Source: a virus
Strand: one strand, 5' to 3'
IMG/VR virus record: IMGVR_UViG_3300030099_004837
Span: 1 to 37,272 of that record
DNA length: 37,272 nucleotides
This document shows, piece after piece, positions 8,251-32,506 of this stretch. The translations under genes and the position numbers were made by a program. The notes under the pieces are model-generated. The model saw only the letters and a program-made list of their open reading frames with translations. It did no database searches and was not told where the DNA came from. The first letter of the stretch is position 1; each line of letters opens with the position of its first letter.

Positions 8251-8645
8251 GTGCCTTCTCAGTAGCCTGGGGCTTGGTCAAGGAAGAACCGATGTGCGAA
8301 AATTGCGTGGACAAACCCGCAATGCGTGGTAGTGATTTCTGCCGTAGTTGTGCCATGAGAATGACAGGCGTTTCATACGATGAAATGACTGAGAGACAAA
8401 AGGGGATGTTCAGGAGATCAGATGACAAGTCAGAAGAGAAGGGCAAGTTCAGAGGCTACTCGAAGAATACCATTAGCGGGAGATCCGAGAGGCAGGGCAA
8501 GGCTAGAGCCTGGAATCAAAGCCGGAGGAACAAGCGAAGGAGAACCCGCAACATATACGCTCGACAGAAGGGGCGAGGTAATGTCCGCCCTGCCATGAGG
8601 AGACAACTAGGTGCTGGTGCAAGCAGAGCAGAGACTAAGCGTTGA
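8247..8645 (+). CDS. Cys-containing, highly basic small protein
   Basis: The ATG at 8247 is preferred over an in-frame GTG at 8211 because it overlaps the previous stop as ATGA; this gives 132 residues. The N-terminal third has two CxxC pairs (CENC and CRSC, residues about 17-35), a probable zinc site. The C-terminal half is very rich in Arg and Lys (for example RRNKRRRTRN) and should be disordered and nucleic-acid binding. It is the last gene of the plus-strand block; its 3' end overlaps the convergent methyltransferase by 11 bases. Possible roles are DNA or RNA packaging or late gene control, but this is inference. Confidence 0.6.
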   Translation: MSAFSVAWGLVKEEPMCENCVDKPAMRGSDFCRSCAMRMTGVSYDEMTERQKGMFRRSDDKSEEKGKFRGYSKNTISGRSERQGKARAWNQSRRNKRRRTRNIYARQKGRGNVRPAMRRQLGAGASRAETKR

Positions 8646-9948
8646 AGTCCATAAGGGTCGGTTGCTTGATTCTCTCCATCGTTAAGTCCTCTTTGATTTC
8701 ATAGTCACCCGAATGGGTTATTCTCGCTCTTGCTATCTCTATGTATTCCTCATCCATCTCGATACCTATGAAATTGAATCCTTCCATGTTAGCCGCTATC
8801 CCTGTCGTGCCACTACCCATAAATGGGTCAAGGACTATTCCTTCGGGTCGAGTGACTAGACGACACAGATAGCGCATGAGACTCACAGGCTTCACGGTTG
8901 GATGATGATTAGTGGATTTTCTATCTTCGCTGAATGTAGTTCCTTCATTTGGTCTGCCAACGCTTGAACGCATACCTGCTCCTATCTTACCCGATTTTTT
9001 CTTCTGCAAATGTTCGCACCCTGCGTTCCTCTCCTTCTGCGATGGCTTGGCGCAATAGAAGAATCGAGATGCACCGCCTTCATCGCCTATTTGGAATGTA
9101 TGTCTTTCTTGTTGAACGCCATAGGTATTGAATTGCCCGCCTTTAGCTATTGAATCCATATTCCCTGATTTCAAATGCCCGCTTTGCTCATCAAGAACCT
9201 CGCCCGCTTCTTCATCAAGAATCACATTTGAAGGGTAGCGACCTTCGGCATTTGTTGGTTGAAATTCTGTTTGCTTACCAAAAACACTCCTTTCATTATT
9301 TGTTGGTTGAAAGGGCCGTTTGTGTTCACCATTACTTTTAATTCGGCAACCATCTATGTTTATGCCACCATTCCCATGCTCAAGCACGTTCTCGACAACC
9401 GTTCCAATGAGGGGCTTACGAGCCACTACAATAGGCTCATGGGCGGGTTTGAGAGCCGTTCCCCAACCATCCCATTGTTTTGCTTTGGGTGTAGCGGGTT
9501 TGGTTATGGTTGGCGAACCTGTATTTCCACCCTGATAAATGCCTTCATAATTAACACCTGAAATTGGGCGATGGTTTGGGTTTTCTCCTATTACTTCTCG
9601 TTCCGCACCTGCGGCTTTGTCTATCGCCTTGCTGATGTTGTGAGACTTTGGGAATCCCGAACCATATATCCACATGATTTGATCGCGAATCTCAAAATCT
9701 GCATCCTCGATATTGACAGCCATGCGATGATAGGTTCGGGAACCTGCGAAAGACAACAGGTATCCTCCGGGCTTCAGAACACGCAATGCCTCTTTCCACA
9801 TCTCCTTACCCGGAACATCATAATCCCACTTATTACCCATGAACTCCAATCCGTATGGAGGGTCTGTGACAATGGAATCAACTGAGTTATCGGCCATTTC
9901 CTTCATCGCTACTACACAATCGGAATTGATTAGTTGTGTCGATACCAT
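8635..9948 (-). CDS. N4/N6 DNA methyltransferase (beta class)
   Basis: A 437-residue S-adenosylmethionine-dependent DNA amino-methyltransferase of the PF01555 type. The catalytic motif TDPPYGL is at residues 28-34. The SAM-binding motif DPFMGSGTTG is at residues 374-383, followed by the FIGIEMDEEYIEIA strand. DPPY before FxGxG defines the beta arrangement. HHPTVKPVSLMRYL precedes the SAM motif, as in many phage and archaeal enzymes. The middle (about 130-330) is a target-recognition region rich in Asn and Gly. No restriction partner is nearby, so it probably modifies viral DNA against host restriction or alters regulation. It starts 44 bases after the exonuclease-like gene with a GGAG upstream. 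Confidence 0.92.
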   Translation of the reverse strand: MVSTQLINSDCVVAMKEMADNSVDSIVTDPPYGLEFMGNKWDYDVPGKEMWKEALRVLKPGGYLLSFAGSRTYHRMAVNIEDADFEIRDQIMWIYGSGFPKSHNISKAIDKAAGAEREVIGENPNHRPISGVNYEGIYQGGNTGSPTITKPATPKAKQWDGWGTALKPAHEPIVVARKPLIGTVVENVLEHGNGGINIDGCRIKSNGEHKRPFQPTNNERSVFGKQTEFQPTNAEGRYPSNVILDEEAGEVLDEQSGHLKSGNMDSIAKGGQFNTYGVQQERHTFQIGDEGGASRFFYCAKPSQKERNAGCEHLQKKKSGKIGAGMRSSVGRPNEGTTFSEDRKSTNHHPTVKPVSLMRYLCRLVTRPEGIVLDPFMGSGTTGIAANMEGFNFIGIEMDEEYIEIARARITHSGDYEIKEDLTMERIKQPTLMDFNA

Positions 9949-14354: not shown

Positions 14355-15749
14355 TCAGAAATCAAACAGGGATTTTTGCTCGCTTGTACGGGAATCTTCT
14401 CTCTCATCCAAACCATTCACCAAATCATCGACTACCTGTATCCCCTCTCCAATCCACCTCATTACCGGAACCGCCATTGAATTGCCCAATGCCTTATACC
14501 GTGGGCCATCGGGACAATCCTCGGGTGCTTTTCCCCTCCAAGATATTTGTGTATAATTATCTGGAAACCCTTGCAAACGCTCGCATTCCAAAGGTGTTAA
14601 TCGGCGCACGGCCATGTTTGTGTGTTTGACTGCCAAACCACCTTCTGCAGTCAAAGGCGCACCAGAGTTTTTCTCATCAAAATTAGTTTGAGAAACATTC
14701 TTCCAATCAAAACCAATTGTTTTTTGAGCAACGGCAGGTGGACTTCCTGCACCACTATTTGTTCCGACTTTGAGTGTGGGACTGACATCCTCGAATACGT
14801 TGGAGTTAGCACCAAAAGTGGAATCGAAACTATGCACGGTTGTTTGTGCAATGATCGGCTCTCTGATTATTTGAGTTGTTCGTGTATCACCCAAATCAAA
14901 GGTGTTGAGAGTATTGGTCACGTCATCCTTTACCCATGTTTCACAGTCGGTATTGGTCTGTGCTCTGCGTGATTTACGAAATATTCCCCTTTCGGTTGGA
15001 GGAAAATCATCAGCAGGTTTAGTTTCGGGTATTAGGTGTCCTGATGCGGCGGTTTGGACAGTAAGTTTGTTGCCGCCACATTCTTTGTCCAATGTTCCTG
15101 TAATCTTGGGGATTACTCTTCTTCCAGATTCGCCTTGTTGAGAAGTGCTTGTTCCAATGTATTCGGTAATTGCTTTCCTCTGCGCCTTGCTCTCCTTAGA
15201 ATGCCCCTGCAAGCTTTCTCGCTCAAATAATACCGATGCGGCACTTCTCCAATCTCCTCCAATATGTCCGACAACGAAGACTCTACGTCTTCGCTGCGGG
15301 ACTCCGAAGAATTGAGAGTCCAAAACTCGGTAGGCGAACCCATACCCGATTTTTGCCACTTCTCCGAGGAAGATTCCAAAATCCCTTCCTCCGTCAGACG
15401 ACAGTAATCCTGGGACATTTTCAAAGACGAACCACGTTGGTTGAATTTCCGCAACAGATCTGATGAATTCGAGGGCCAAGTTGCCACGAGGGTCATCCAT
15501 TCCAAGTCTTTTTCCTGCAACCGAGAAGGATTGACACGGGCTTCCTCCGACAACGACTTCTGCTTTTCCTTTGTATTCACTCCAATCAACTCCTTCCACG
15601 TTTCCTAAGTTTGGCACATCGGGATAGTGATGTGCGAGTACGGCAGAGGGAAAAGCATCAATGTCTGCAAAGGCCATAGGTTCCCATCCCATGTGATGCC
15701 ATGCCTGGGATGCGGCTTCGATACCTGCGAATAGGCTGACATATCTCAT
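14355..15749 (-). CDS. dcm: DNA cytosine-C5 methyltransferase
   Basis: A 464-residue full-length C5 methyltransferase (PF00145). Motif I is LFAGIEA (residues 6-12), the catalytic PCQ loop is GGSPCQSFS (68-76, Cys72), motif VI is ENV (110-112), and motif VIII is QRRRRVFVVG (152-161). A long target-recognition region (about 170-390) is rich in Thr, Asn and Ser. Motifs IX-X are RRLTPLECERLQGFPDN and YKALGNSMAVP near the C-terminus. It methylates the C5 position of cytosine in a short DNA site that cannot be read from sequence. With the N4/N6 enzyme it makes two modification specificities without visible endonucleases, which suggests anti-restriction. Its start overlaps the nuclease gene upstream by 4 bases (ATGA). 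Confidence 0.95.
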   Translation of the reverse strand: MRYVSLFAGIEAASQAWHHMGWEPMAFADIDAFPSAVLAHHYPDVPNLGNVEGVDWSEYKGKAEVVVGGSPCQSFSVAGKRLGMDDPRGNLALEFIRSVAEIQPTWFVFENVPGLLSSDGGRDFGIFLGEVAKIGYGFAYRVLDSQFFGVPQRRRRVFVVGHIGGDWRSAASVLFERESLQGHSKESKAQRKAITEYIGTSTSQQGESGRRVIPKITGTLDKECGGNKLTVQTAASGHLIPETKPADDFPPTERGIFRKSRRAQTNTDCETWVKDDVTNTLNTFDLGDTRTTQIIREPIIAQTTVHSFDSTFGANSNVFEDVSPTLKVGTNSGAGSPPAVAQKTIGFDWKNVSQTNFDEKNSGAPLTAEGGLAVKHTNMAVRRLTPLECERLQGFPDNYTQISWRGKAPEDCPDGPRYKALGNSMAVPVMRWIGEGIQVVDDLVNGLDEREDSRTSEQKSLFDF

Positions 15750-26535: not shown

Positions 26536-26598
26536 AATGTATCACCATCCCACTTGTTGGGGATTAGTGAGGGGGGATAGGGGTATTTGAACCCTTTG

Positions 26599-26730
26599 TT
26601 ATACTAACCTTCTCTGTTCTCGTTTGTGTTTCAGATAGCACTTACCGCAGAGCATTCTCTTGTTCGATCTGCTTCCCATTGTATTATTCGCTGTTATTTC
26701 CTTACTGCATCCCATGCAAGTGTGTGGCAT
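26599..26730 (-). CDS. Zinc-ribbon microprotein (43 aa)
   Basis: A 43-residue ORF with CMGCS (residues 5-9) and LCGKC (27-31) separated by a basic loop with Asn and Ser, and a Lys/Arg-rich tail (LKHKREQRR). No ribosome-binding site is obvious; the region upstream is AT-rich (ATTATTATCAATAAATG). It is the first ORF after the candidate structured RNA. Function unknown. Confidence 0.6.
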   Translation of the reverse strand: MPHTCMGCSKEITANNTMGSRSNKRMLCGKCYLKHKREQRRLV

Positions 26731-26805
26731 GGAATCATATGATTAGCATTTATTGATAATAATTTGGTGGGGAGAGGGGCTATGAAACGGGCAAGAAAAC
26801 AACCC

Positions 26806-26876
26806 TGGGCCTACCCCTCCCCCCCGCCATCGCAGAATGCCCAGCACGATGCCGTAAGAGTTGTCTTATAGGCCCA
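26806..26876 (-). ncRNA. Candidate structured RNA (three-way junction)
   Basis: This 71-base element lies in a 163-base gene-free gap (26731-26893). An 8-bp closing stem pairs 26806-26813 with 26869-26876 (TGGGCCTA with TAGGCCCA). Inside it, 26855-26859 pairs with 26864-26868 (5 bp, 4-base loop), stacked directly on the closing stem, and 26828-26832 pairs with 26847-26851 (5 bp). On the minus strand the G-rich tract 26814-26825 lies between stems. A TATA-like promoter element is centred about 26 bases upstream of 26876 on that strand, the archaeal TATA-to-start distance. It lacks a 7-base T-loop, so it is not a tRNA. Alternatives are a 5' leader with regulatory function or a DNA-level site. 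Confidence 0.45.
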
Positions 26877-26893: not shown

Positions 26894-27028
26894 TTAGTTA
26901 TTATACACTCTCATAAGTCTGCAACAACGAGCGCATCTTTTGATTGATAGAGAGGAATCTGAGCAAAGTTTAGTCTTGCATCCAGGTTCGATACAGAACC
27001 GAGGTGGCAAGGAGTTATTCTTCCTCAT
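26894..27028 (-). CDS. Cys-rich microprotein (44 aa)
   Basis: A 44-residue ORF starting inside the 3' end of the preceding 32-residue ORF. It encodes RFCIEPGCKTKLC (residues 11-23) and KRCARCC (31-37): at least six cysteines in a pattern like short zinc-finger proteins with CxxxxC and CxxCC. The last codons (MRVYNN) overlap a promoter-like element. Function unknown. Confidence 0.6.
   Translation of the reverse strand: MRKNNSLPPRFCIEPGCKTKLCSDSSLSIKRCARCCRLMRVYNN
26897..26912 (-). promoter_or_regulatory. Promoter-like element, variant f
   Basis: The minus strand reads GAGAGTGTATAATAAC. It shares GAGAGTGT with the other copies and has a better TATA box (TATAATA). It lies in the last codons of the 44-residue Cys-rich ORF and about 26 bases before the first base of the 71-base foldable element. 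Confidence 0.5.
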
Positions 27029-27113
27029 CTGAAACCACCCAAATCTTATCGAACATTCTGATTTTAGTCGGAGTAATCCATGATATGATTGGCCGTTTGG
27101 TAATCCTACTCAC
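27015..27113 (-). CDS. Microprotein (32 aa), unknown function
   Basis: A 32-residue ORF starting with GTG in a GTGA overlap with the winged-helix gene's stop. It ends VVSDEEE, where GATGAGGAAGAA gives the ribosome-binding context of the next ORF. TPTKIRMFDKIW in its middle resembles ETKIRMGIDGKYY of the 55-residue protein at 32512-32679, and 16 bases are identical between the two. Likely real but of unknown role. Confidence 0.5.
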   Translation of the reverse strand: MSRITKRPIISWITPTKIRMFDKIWVVSDEEE

Positions 27114-27379
27114 TTGACTTCATACTCCTGATAATCATCTGCTAGCTTGTATATTTGCAAAGAATGCATACCCATCGCCCTTCTAGTCTCTCCAACTAAT
27201 TCAAAGCGAGGATCCTTCGCTAGGACGTTACTGATTCTCATCATGGACTCGCCCCAGTATGTATTTCTCTTGATATGCTCGTAAATGTCAGCAGTGTCGG
27301 CTTGATCTTTGTCTTTGAGAAACCTGATGATTGAATTACGCAAACGCTTCGTTCGACCTGCGAATATCTTGGTTTTCAT
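27110..27379 (-). CDS. Winged-helix DNA-binding protein
   Basis: An 89-residue protein. After a basic N-terminus (KTKIFAGRTKRLR) come helix 1 (NSIIRFLKDKDQ), helix 2 (TADIYEHIKRN), helix 3 (MMRISNVLAKDPRF) and a wing (ELVGETRR ... LQIYKLAD), the standard winged-helix order. It begins one base after the thermosome stop and is probably co-transcribed with it, so it may regulate that unit or neighbouring early genes. Confidence 0.7.
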   Translation of the reverse strand: MKTKIFAGRTKRLRNSIIRFLKDKDQADTADIYEHIKRNTYWGESMMRISNVLAKDPRFELVGETRRAMGMHSLQIYKLADDYQEYEVK

Positions 27380-27382
27380 GCC

Positions 27383-28975
27383 TCAACCACCCATCCCCAT
27401 CATTGGGGGGGGCAAGTCTCCGCCGGATGGCTTCATACTGATTACATCATCAATCCTGAGAATCAGGGTCGAAGCCTCGACTGCACTAGATATTGCGGTT
27501 CTGATTAGTTTTCTCGGTTCGATTACCTTCAACTTCTTCATGTTCTCAATTTTACCATCTATTGAAACTCCGTCATGGATGCCCGAGCTCTTGAGTGAAA
27601 GAAGCGTATCAACAGGATCCGCCCCTGAGTTTTCTGCCAAAGTCCAGGGGATTGATTCGAGAGCAGAGGCAAAGGACTCAACTGCCATAGCCTGTCGTCC
27701 AGGTGCTTCGTGCGCTCTCTCTCGTAGCACTCTCGCTAGGTGTGCATAAGCAGAACCGCCACCCGCTACCATTATCTTACTCTCATCGGACAATGCCACC
27801 ACTCCGATAACATCGTCAAAGCATCTCTCTAACTCTGAGACTGTGTGACCTGTGGCCCCACGAAGAATAGCCGTCACGCTTTTCGCACCTTCATTGGTGA
27901 CGCAGACGCAGATATGCTCTCCGAATTTCTCTTCTGAAATCAAGGAAGCAGAACCTAATTGTTCGGGTTTCAACTCTTTGATTTCGCTAACTAATTTTGC
28001 GCCCGTAATCCTACGCAGGGCTTCCATGTCGCTGTTCTTGACTCGCTTAGTGGCGAGAATATTGTATTGAGCAAGATAGTGTGCTGCGAGTGGGTCAATA
28101 TCCTTTTGACAGAATACTGCATTTGCACCACTTTTGGAAATCTCTTGGCACATGACTTTGATTGCCTCTTCTTCGCGGGCTAGAAACGCCTCTAAGATGC
28201 CAGGATCATTGATGTTGAGTTTGCTCTCAATCTTGGTTTCCTTTGGTTCCAATGATGTCTTGAGAAGCAAGACGTTTGCATCCACTATGCTTTGAGGCAT
28301 CTCAGAATGGACTCTTTCTTTCTCAACCACAAGGCCCGATAGCAATTCGCTTTGATCGTAAGTGCCACCCTCGAATGTTGAGACTTTGATGTTGTCTAAA
28401 TTGATATTGCCCTCATCATCTCTAACTGCATCCAAAGCCCGCACAGATATGTCAGAGAGCGTATCAATCGCTGATTCTGCTGACTTGCCATTAATAGATG
28501 TCCGTGCCGCATCTGCTAATTCATCCCCACTCAGTTCCCAACCCATCTCGTCTAGCGTTTCCAGAACAATGGATAATGCGAAGTGATACCCCTTGACGAG
28601 AATGGCTGGATGGACTTGCTTCTCAATCAACTCCTTCGCCTGTTCCAACAAAGCCCCTGATATTACTGCGGTAGTCGTGGTTCCATCGTGGCATTGAGAA
28701 TCTTGAGTCTTGGAGATTTCAATTATGATTTTGGCTGCAGGATGCTCGGCATGAAGCAACTCAAGAATCGTCACTCCATCATTGGTGATGGTGACTTCAC
28801 CACCACCACCGACCAGGAGCTTGTCAAACCCTAGTGGCCCTAACGTGGAACGCACAGATTCGGCAACGGCTCTTGCGGCCATTATGTTGTTCTCCTGGGC
28901 GTTTCTTCCACTCCTATTTTTTGCCCCTTCTTGTAGTATATAGATTGGTTCTCCATTTGGCCCCTGTGCCATCAT
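27383..28975 (-). CDS. Group II chaperonin (thermosome subunit)
   Basis: A 530-residue, full-length group II chaperonin (PF00118). VTITNDGVTIL (residues 61-71), HPAAKIIIEISKTQDS and the nucleotide loop CHDGTTTTAVISG (95-107) match the equatorial domain; most thermosomes have GDGTT where this has HDGTT. The catalytic Asp region is CFDD (385-388), followed by VAGGGSAYAHLARVL (403-417). The C-terminus PPPMMGMGG is a typical Gly/Met tail into the folding chamber. It should form an ATP-driven double ring, alone or mixed with host subunits, to fold viral proteins. Thermosome genes are known from metagenomic viruses of marine archaea. It starts at ATGATG, 29 bases after a degenerate promoter-like element. 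Confidence 0.96.
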   Translation of the reverse strand: MMAQGPNGEPIYILQEGAKNRSGRNAQENNIMAARAVAESVRSTLGPLGFDKLLVGGGGEVTITNDGVTILELLHAEHPAAKIIIEISKTQDSQCHDGTTTTAVISGALLEQAKELIEKQVHPAILVKGYHFALSIVLETLDEMGWELSGDELADAARTSINGKSAESAIDTLSDISVRALDAVRDDEGNINLDNIKVSTFEGGTYDQSELLSGLVVEKERVHSEMPQSIVDANVLLLKTSLEPKETKIESKLNINDPGILEAFLAREEEAIKVMCQEISKSGANAVFCQKDIDPLAAHYLAQYNILATKRVKNSDMEALRRITGAKLVSEIKELKPEQLGSASLISEEKFGEHICVCVTNEGAKSVTAILRGATGHTVSELERCFDDVIGVVALSDESKIMVAGGGSAYAHLARVLRERAHEAPGRQAMAVESFASALESIPWTLAENSGADPVDTLLSLKSSGIHDGVSIDGKIENMKKLKVIEPRKLIRTAISSAVEASTLILRIDDVISMKPSGGDLPPPMMGMGG

Positions 28976-32492: not shown

Positions 32493-32506
32493 TTATGAAC
32501 ACTCTC
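32493..32506 (-). promoter_or_regulatory. Promoter-like element, copy d (helicase)
   Basis: The minus strand reads GAGAGTGTTCATAA in the 45-base gap between the 55-residue gene and the helicase. It is the clearest copy: truly intergenic, an exact 14-base match to copy b, and centred 30 bases before the helicase ATG. Confidence 0.6.

Follow-up and report, generated by a model that had tools for sequence, protein, structure and literature searches.

The IMG/VR virus record IMGVR_UViG_3300030099_004837, analyzed here over its whole length of 37,272 bases (the window), contains in its minus-strand half an intergenic stretch for which a foldable element of 71 bases had been predicted, and the question raised by this locus is whether it encodes a free-standing non-coding RNA, the structured leader of an mRNA or a feature that operates at the level of DNA. 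The gap had been described as the only sizeable one without genes in that half; there is a further gap, e.g. downstream of 28975, and the upstream Cys-rich ORF (Table 1) occupies part of the gap under study, the size of which was therefore overstated. In addition to a thermosome gene and the WH gene, the window encodes a UvrD-type helicase, an ERCC4 nuclease and a PD-(D/E)XK nuclease, and this content in thermosome, helicase, ERCC4 and PD-(D/E)XK genes suggests a virus that resembles the Magrovirales. Magroviruses are tailed viruses that have Marine Group II archaea as hosts. Their genomes are 90-110 kb in size, and their virion and replication modules are transcribed in opposite directions (PMC12999244).

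Homologous regions were searched for by means of the thermosome, which identified three close records (L002, L003 and L004 with 86, 86 and 74% identity, respectively), more distant records at ~39-53% (L033-L042) and a larger set down to ~38%. In L002-L004, the gap is also present ahead of the Cys microprotein gene. The same helix arrangement as in the window is found in L033, where it immediately follows the WH gene, an order shared with the window except for the small ORF, and in L035, where it lies ~450 bases upstream of the thermosome gene. In total, the candidate RNA is known from six records, i.e. the window and five related ones, in about five lineages.

Two helices define this arrangement. 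The first, P1, is the 8-bp inverted repeat that was originally predicted to close the interval 26806-26876 on the minus strand and that is present as predicted. In the second, P2, a G-run just inside P1 pairs over 11 bp with a C-run beyond the P1 3' arm. Because the partner in this strongest helix lies outside the 71-base interval, the borders of that interval were wrong, and the element spans 26769 (or 26765) to 26876, read on the minus strand from 26876 to 26769. The arms follow each other in the order a-b-a'-b', i.e. they form a pseudoknot, and zero bases separate the P2 5' arm from the P1 3' arm in all six records. Across these records P1 is 8-10 bp and P2 11-13 bp long, with duplex energies of -9 to -16 kcal/mol and -21 to -24 kcal/mol, respectively, and the P2 arms read GGGGGGAGGGG/CCCCTCTCCCC in the window, GGGGGGAGGGG/CCCCTCCTCCC in L002 and L003, GGGGGGGAAGC/GCTTCCCTCCC in L004, GGAGGGAGGGGT/ACCCCTCCTTCC in L035 and GGGGGAATGGGTT/AACCCATTCTCCC in L033.

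A check for compensatory changes in homologues had been named beforehand as the refuting test, and the element passed it. In A8, a MAFFT alignment made without structure from the window, L002, L003 and L004 (four rows, three lineages), P1 and P2 are in register, 97.4% of the cells are paired and 9 of the 19 pairs have changed on both sides. Shuffled controls have 3.5 ± 1.3 such pairs with none of 500 reaching nine, and 0-2 pairs remain when the partners are shifted by 1-3 columns. L033 and L035, which were added by hand in register and thus fitted to the structure, pair at all 19 positions with more changes. These compensatory changes in both helices argue for a conserved structured RNA. Alternatively, the pairing could be a feature of the DNA or a terminator and not an RNA gene, as might be thought of a GC-rich inverted repeat between two transcription units; we regard this as very improbable given that both crossing helices covary, which neither a terminator hairpin nor a protein-binding palindrome needs, and that a promoter box lies upstream at constant spacing.

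Table 1. Coordinates of the candidate RNA, its parts and neighboring features (window positions unless a record is named).
Feature	Position	Strand	Basis or remark
Proposed non-coding RNA, ~108 nt	26769-26876	minus	Fold, covariation and recurrence; predicted 5' end 26875/26876
P1 5' arm TGGGCCTA	26869-26876	minus	5 of 8 P1 pairs changed on both sides and 100% of cells paired in A8
P1 3' arm TAGGCCCA	26806-26813	minus	As for the P1 5' arm
P2 5' arm GGGGGGAGGGG (pseudoknot helix)	26814-26824	minus	4 of 11 P2 pairs changed on both sides in A8
P2 3' arm CCCCTCTCCCC	26769-26779	minus	As for the P2 5' arm; outside the earlier 71-base interval
P3 hairpin	26826-26853	minus	GGCATCG (26847-26853) with CGATGGC (26826-26832); loop carries GCTGGGCA
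P4 weak hairpin GGG/CCC	26789-26805	minus	Between the P1 3' and P2 3' arms
ACCA	26765-26768	minus	Immediately 3' of P2
Promoter-like GAGAGTG (BRE-like, 26906-26912) and TATAATAA (26898-26905)	26898-26912	minus	Motif type occurs 8 times on the minus strand of the window
Upstream Cys-rich ORF, 38 aa, TTG start	26894-27010	minus	Counterparts in L002 and L003, 53% identity
Downstream Cys-rich microprotein gene, 43 aa	26599-26730	minus	Homologues in L002, L003, L004, L033 and L035
WH, 89-aa protein	27110-27379		Match to DUF3860
Group II chaperonin (thermosome) gene	27383-28975
69-aa orphan (MKTYRGGWRF...)	L035:1403-1612		Same present/absent block as the RNA

Within the element, a three-way junction had been proposed on the basis of two small hairpins. 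One of them, TAAGA/TCTTA, occurs in the window only, which leaves the junction unsupported. The other, CATCG/CGATG, corresponds to P3: its form is retained in L004 and L035, L002 and L003 have other pairs at this place, and L033 has no such hairpin. The loop sequence GCTGGGCA is identical in the four close sequences, i.e. in the window clade only, and a search of viral genomes for an antisense target of this loop gave no conserved site. At the position of P4, a hairpin of different sequence is tentatively predicted in other records. The bases just 3' of P2 are ACCA in the window, L004 and L035, ACCC in L033 and AAAC in L002 and L003, and the ACCA may be chance. P3 ends at, or 1-2 bases from, the P2 5' arm in the window, L002, L003, L004 and L035, and in these five records three helices can therefore stack on one continuous strand. 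In L033, which is without P3, a 9-nt loop must bridge 13 bp, and we judge this to be possible. The RNA very probably folds into the knotted shape; P1 and P2 might alternate instead of coexisting.

The minus strand of the 71-mer folds at -30.7 kcal/mol (z -2.6) and only one of 200 shuffles is as good, in agreement with its original description as a foldable element. The full 112 nt folded with nested pairs only have a z of -0.6, which is ordinary for their composition; the evidence for an RNA is covariation and recurrence, not folding energy. RNAalifold, a method that cannot draw pseudoknots, recovers P2 and P4 by itself. The ordinary nested fold and the low complexity of the arms in the window are what would speak for chance complementarity between a G-run and a C-run in a GC-rich gap. 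However, the covariation, the recurrence with less repetitive arms, e.g. in L033 and L004, and the absence of a comparable match from resampled sequence leave this explanation with hardly any credibility, and we hold it refuted for P1 and P2.

Recurrence was assessed with a descriptor of the pseudoknot that also requires P2 to be rich in purines and a TATA-like box to have at least 7 A/T in 8 positions, with sites counted from a score of 48 upwards. It identifies one site each in the window, G001, G002, G003, G004 and G006 and no site of this kind in the other records of the first set, and 6.6 Mb (one strand) generated from these records by first-order Markov resampling contain zero sites at that level and three at any score. 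At comparable quality, ~1.15 Mb of thermosome flanks contain the known sites only, and ~1.0 Mb from 14 further records gave no motif-like match, the candidates present there being unlike it and of other composition. A high-scoring descriptor match in L034 and a similar one in L036 were set aside; the match is on a CTCCCTAAGGAG palindrome, and the L034 site is without a TATA-like box. As a separate observation, Cys-rich coding sequence at L034:3735-3823 and L036:1208-1294 contains repeated copies of CTCCCTAAGGAG and its complement CTCCTTAGGGAG.

A covariance model of P2, P4 and sequence, for which the four close sequences but not L035 were used, recovers L035 with 39.7 bits (E 8.8e-10) and finds no other convincing place in ~2.5 Mb. 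L033 is missed by this model, and its membership is based on position and fold. L043 is a Thermoplasmatota MAG contig with a thermosome gene, and a covariance search that covered 390 genomes from its phylum yielded two short weak matches (E 6e-4 and 9e-4 per genome), which are taken as chance because the fetched loci contain no convincing pseudoknot; the set is defined at the level of the phylum, and the result does not extend to absence from the Poseidoniales hosts. A pattern scan of IMG/VR for GCTGGGCAW...GGGGG returned three known relatives only, the rest being apparent chance matches in GC-rich sequence, and phage records contain no homologue by DNA or by WH protein.

The TATA-like core that had been noted ahead of the element is there: the octamer TATAATAA, read from 26905 to 26898 with GAGAGTG upstream, starts 29 nt before P1, and the promoter-like element sits within the 3' end of the upstream Cys-rich ORF. 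The first T of the box lies 26-29 nt ahead of P1 in six of six RNAs, and exactly 30 nt after this T there is a purine in each of them (G, G, G, G, A and G). In the clear cases of the motif ahead of genes, the ATG follows 31-33 nt after the first T, and a spacing of 31-33 nt from box to ATG is the expectation for leaderless archaeal mRNAs. The downstream Cys-rich microprotein gene has the TATA-like TTATCAAT ~29 nt ahead of its ATG. Because the first descriptor scan was run without the box, its presence in all six records is partly independent support. The positional A/T profile over all putative starts has a weak peak near -29/-28, and since this general enrichment is weak, the case for a promoter relies on the individual motif occurrences given here. 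Judged by these spacings, the RNA appears to have its own promoter at a constant distance, as is expected of a free-standing non-coding RNA. More generally, the motif AGAGTGTTCAT(A) recurs on the minus strand of the window (e.g. at 32505, 29363, 22294, 19516 and 13233) and nowhere on the plus strand, typically 31-33 nt ahead of an ATG.

In the window, no Rfam 15 family scores above its gathering threshold, and the matches in the region, weak microRNA-type ones and C4, are far below; in five relatives, Rfam has nothing at the RNA position up to E 5. ARAGORN finds no tRNA or tmRNA gene in the window, L002, L003, L004, L033 and L035, as had been stated for the tRNA. Searches of the open-access literature, which does not cover the original magrovirus paper, retrieved no description of a structured free-standing non-coding RNA in viruses of Marine Group II archaea or of a non-coding RNA of this kind in archaeal viruses. 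The compensatory changes, the five other virus records, the box at constant spacing and the absence of an Rfam family support the original suggestion of an undescribed viral non-coding RNA, and a shape that is kept while most letters change in related viruses is indicative of a genuine RNA family not described before.

Such an RNA could act in cis: The pseudoknot would start a longer mRNA and, as a riboswitch-like, attenuator or antitermination RNA, control the genes that follow, similar to the structured leader of the downstream operon that was the other original suggestion. In every case the RNA shares its strand and gene cluster with thermosome, WH and D334, and no terminator is visible beyond P2, for which reason a leader retains some probability, albeit a low one. 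Against it, the genes that follow the RNA vary by lineage, being the Cys microprotein in the window clade, a gene for a 331-aa HELAH-containing protein in L033 and the 69-aa orphan, which has no relative among the other viral records compared, in L035; the same kind of downstream gene across lineages, as looked for in a cis-acting leader or riboswitch, was thus not found. Moreover, every lineage has a TATA-like box immediately beyond the RNA, and most lineages have a separate one for D334, which lies further downstream. Finally, G009 and L035 are 92.5% identical as far as base 1165 and become identical once more at 1616, and the 450 bases between, with promoter, RNA and 69-aa ORF, are missing in G009 while its thermosome gene is intact; either L035 would have gained this block or G009 would have lost it. 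On these grounds we prefer an independent accessory RNA that acts in trans over a leader. Because the sequence of the helices changes freely and the shape is kept, the shape is what matters across the group.

A trans-acting RNA might alternatively serve in packaging or replication of the viral DNA, as a packaging-RNA-like molecule or a primer RNA. Its size and strong fold in a tailed dsDNA virus would suit this role and the G-rich strand could favour an RNA-DNA hybrid, but the fold is missing in most related records searched as well as in G009, which argues against an essential role, and there is no skew turn at the RNA, making a packaging or replication RNA improbable. A replication origin at this site was rejected as there is no skew turn.

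The sequences show the conserved pairing of P1 and P2, the recurrence, the spacing of the box, the changing gene context and the one relative without the block; we infer that the RNA is transcribed, that both helices form at once, that it acts in trans and that it has a protein partner. We suggest, with a probability of roughly 0.6, that the locus is a free-standing viral non-coding RNA gene of accessory function that acts in trans through its shape. In this model, (i) a virus-type archaeal promoter would start transcription either exactly where P1 begins or up to one to four bases away, (ii) the resulting RNA of ~105-140 nt would fold into an H-type pseudoknot in which the ends of P1 and P2 stack on each other without an intervening unpaired base, (iii) P3, which abuts or nearly abuts P2 in five of six records, would complete three stacked helices that form a rigid rod of ~25 bp, (iv) this shape would act in trans, most likely by offering a viral or host protein a scaffold or a decoy, and (v) the RNA would be accessory and be gained or lost by viruses as a block. 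The best fit would be a rigid rod that serves as scaffold or decoy for a protein recognising it. More tentatively, the family might comprise accessory protein-binding decoy or scaffold RNAs of magrovirus-like viruses of marine archaea that are used with or against the host machinery, each with two or three helices stacked coaxially into a rod that the pseudoknot closes.

Several known RNAs share traits with the proposed one. GOLLD and ROOL are structured phage RNAs of unknown function; they are bacterial and large, with GOLLD frequently exceeding 800 nt, are often found near tRNA islands and are included in Rfam (PMC12286853). Like these, the RNA described here would be a free-standing, strongly structured and pseudoknotted RNA of a tailed virus without a known protein partner or function. 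Unlike them, it is ~105-140 nt long, is found in archaeal viruses and has no Rfam match. The adenovirus VA RNA is a virus-encoded decoy RNA of animal viruses that is short, has its own promoter and is conserved in shape rather than sequence. It would work alike if the decoy idea is right; the two RNAs are unrelated and differ in polymerase, fold and host. The packaging RNA of phi29 is a short structured RNA of a tailed virus with a junction and loop-loop contacts between copies; the RNA described here is likewise short, structured and from a tailed virus, but is a pseudoknot that can be missing from a close relative. HDV-like ribozymes form a nested double pseudoknot with P3 between P2 5' and P1 3', and likewise have two crossing helices and hairpins in ~110 nt. 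In contrast to these ribozymes, the RNA has an extra hairpin between P1 5' and P2 5' and no Rfam match, and its P2 5' arm abuts the P1 3' arm with zero bases in six of six records, unlike the ribozyme order.

If expressed, this RNA would give access to RNA biology in a virus group that is abundant but uncultured, and the covariation model supplies exact borders and mutants for testing. The gain or loss of a whole block hints at an accessory function, for example in taking over the host or in counter-defence.

Other features of the window were noted in passing. The upstream Cys-rich ORF and the downstream Cys microprotein have four cysteines in register, and for this reason may be paralogues. 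Two DNA methyltransferase-like proteins are encoded at 8635-9948 and 14355-15749 on the minus strand, with DPPY-type and PCQ-type motifs in the translations. Upstream of D334 (26536-26610 on the minus strand of the window, and in L003, L004, L035, L037, L040 and L042), there is a TATA-like box with a C-rich stretch behind it and often GGTGAT near the D334 start codon, an arrangement that recurs in distant relatives.
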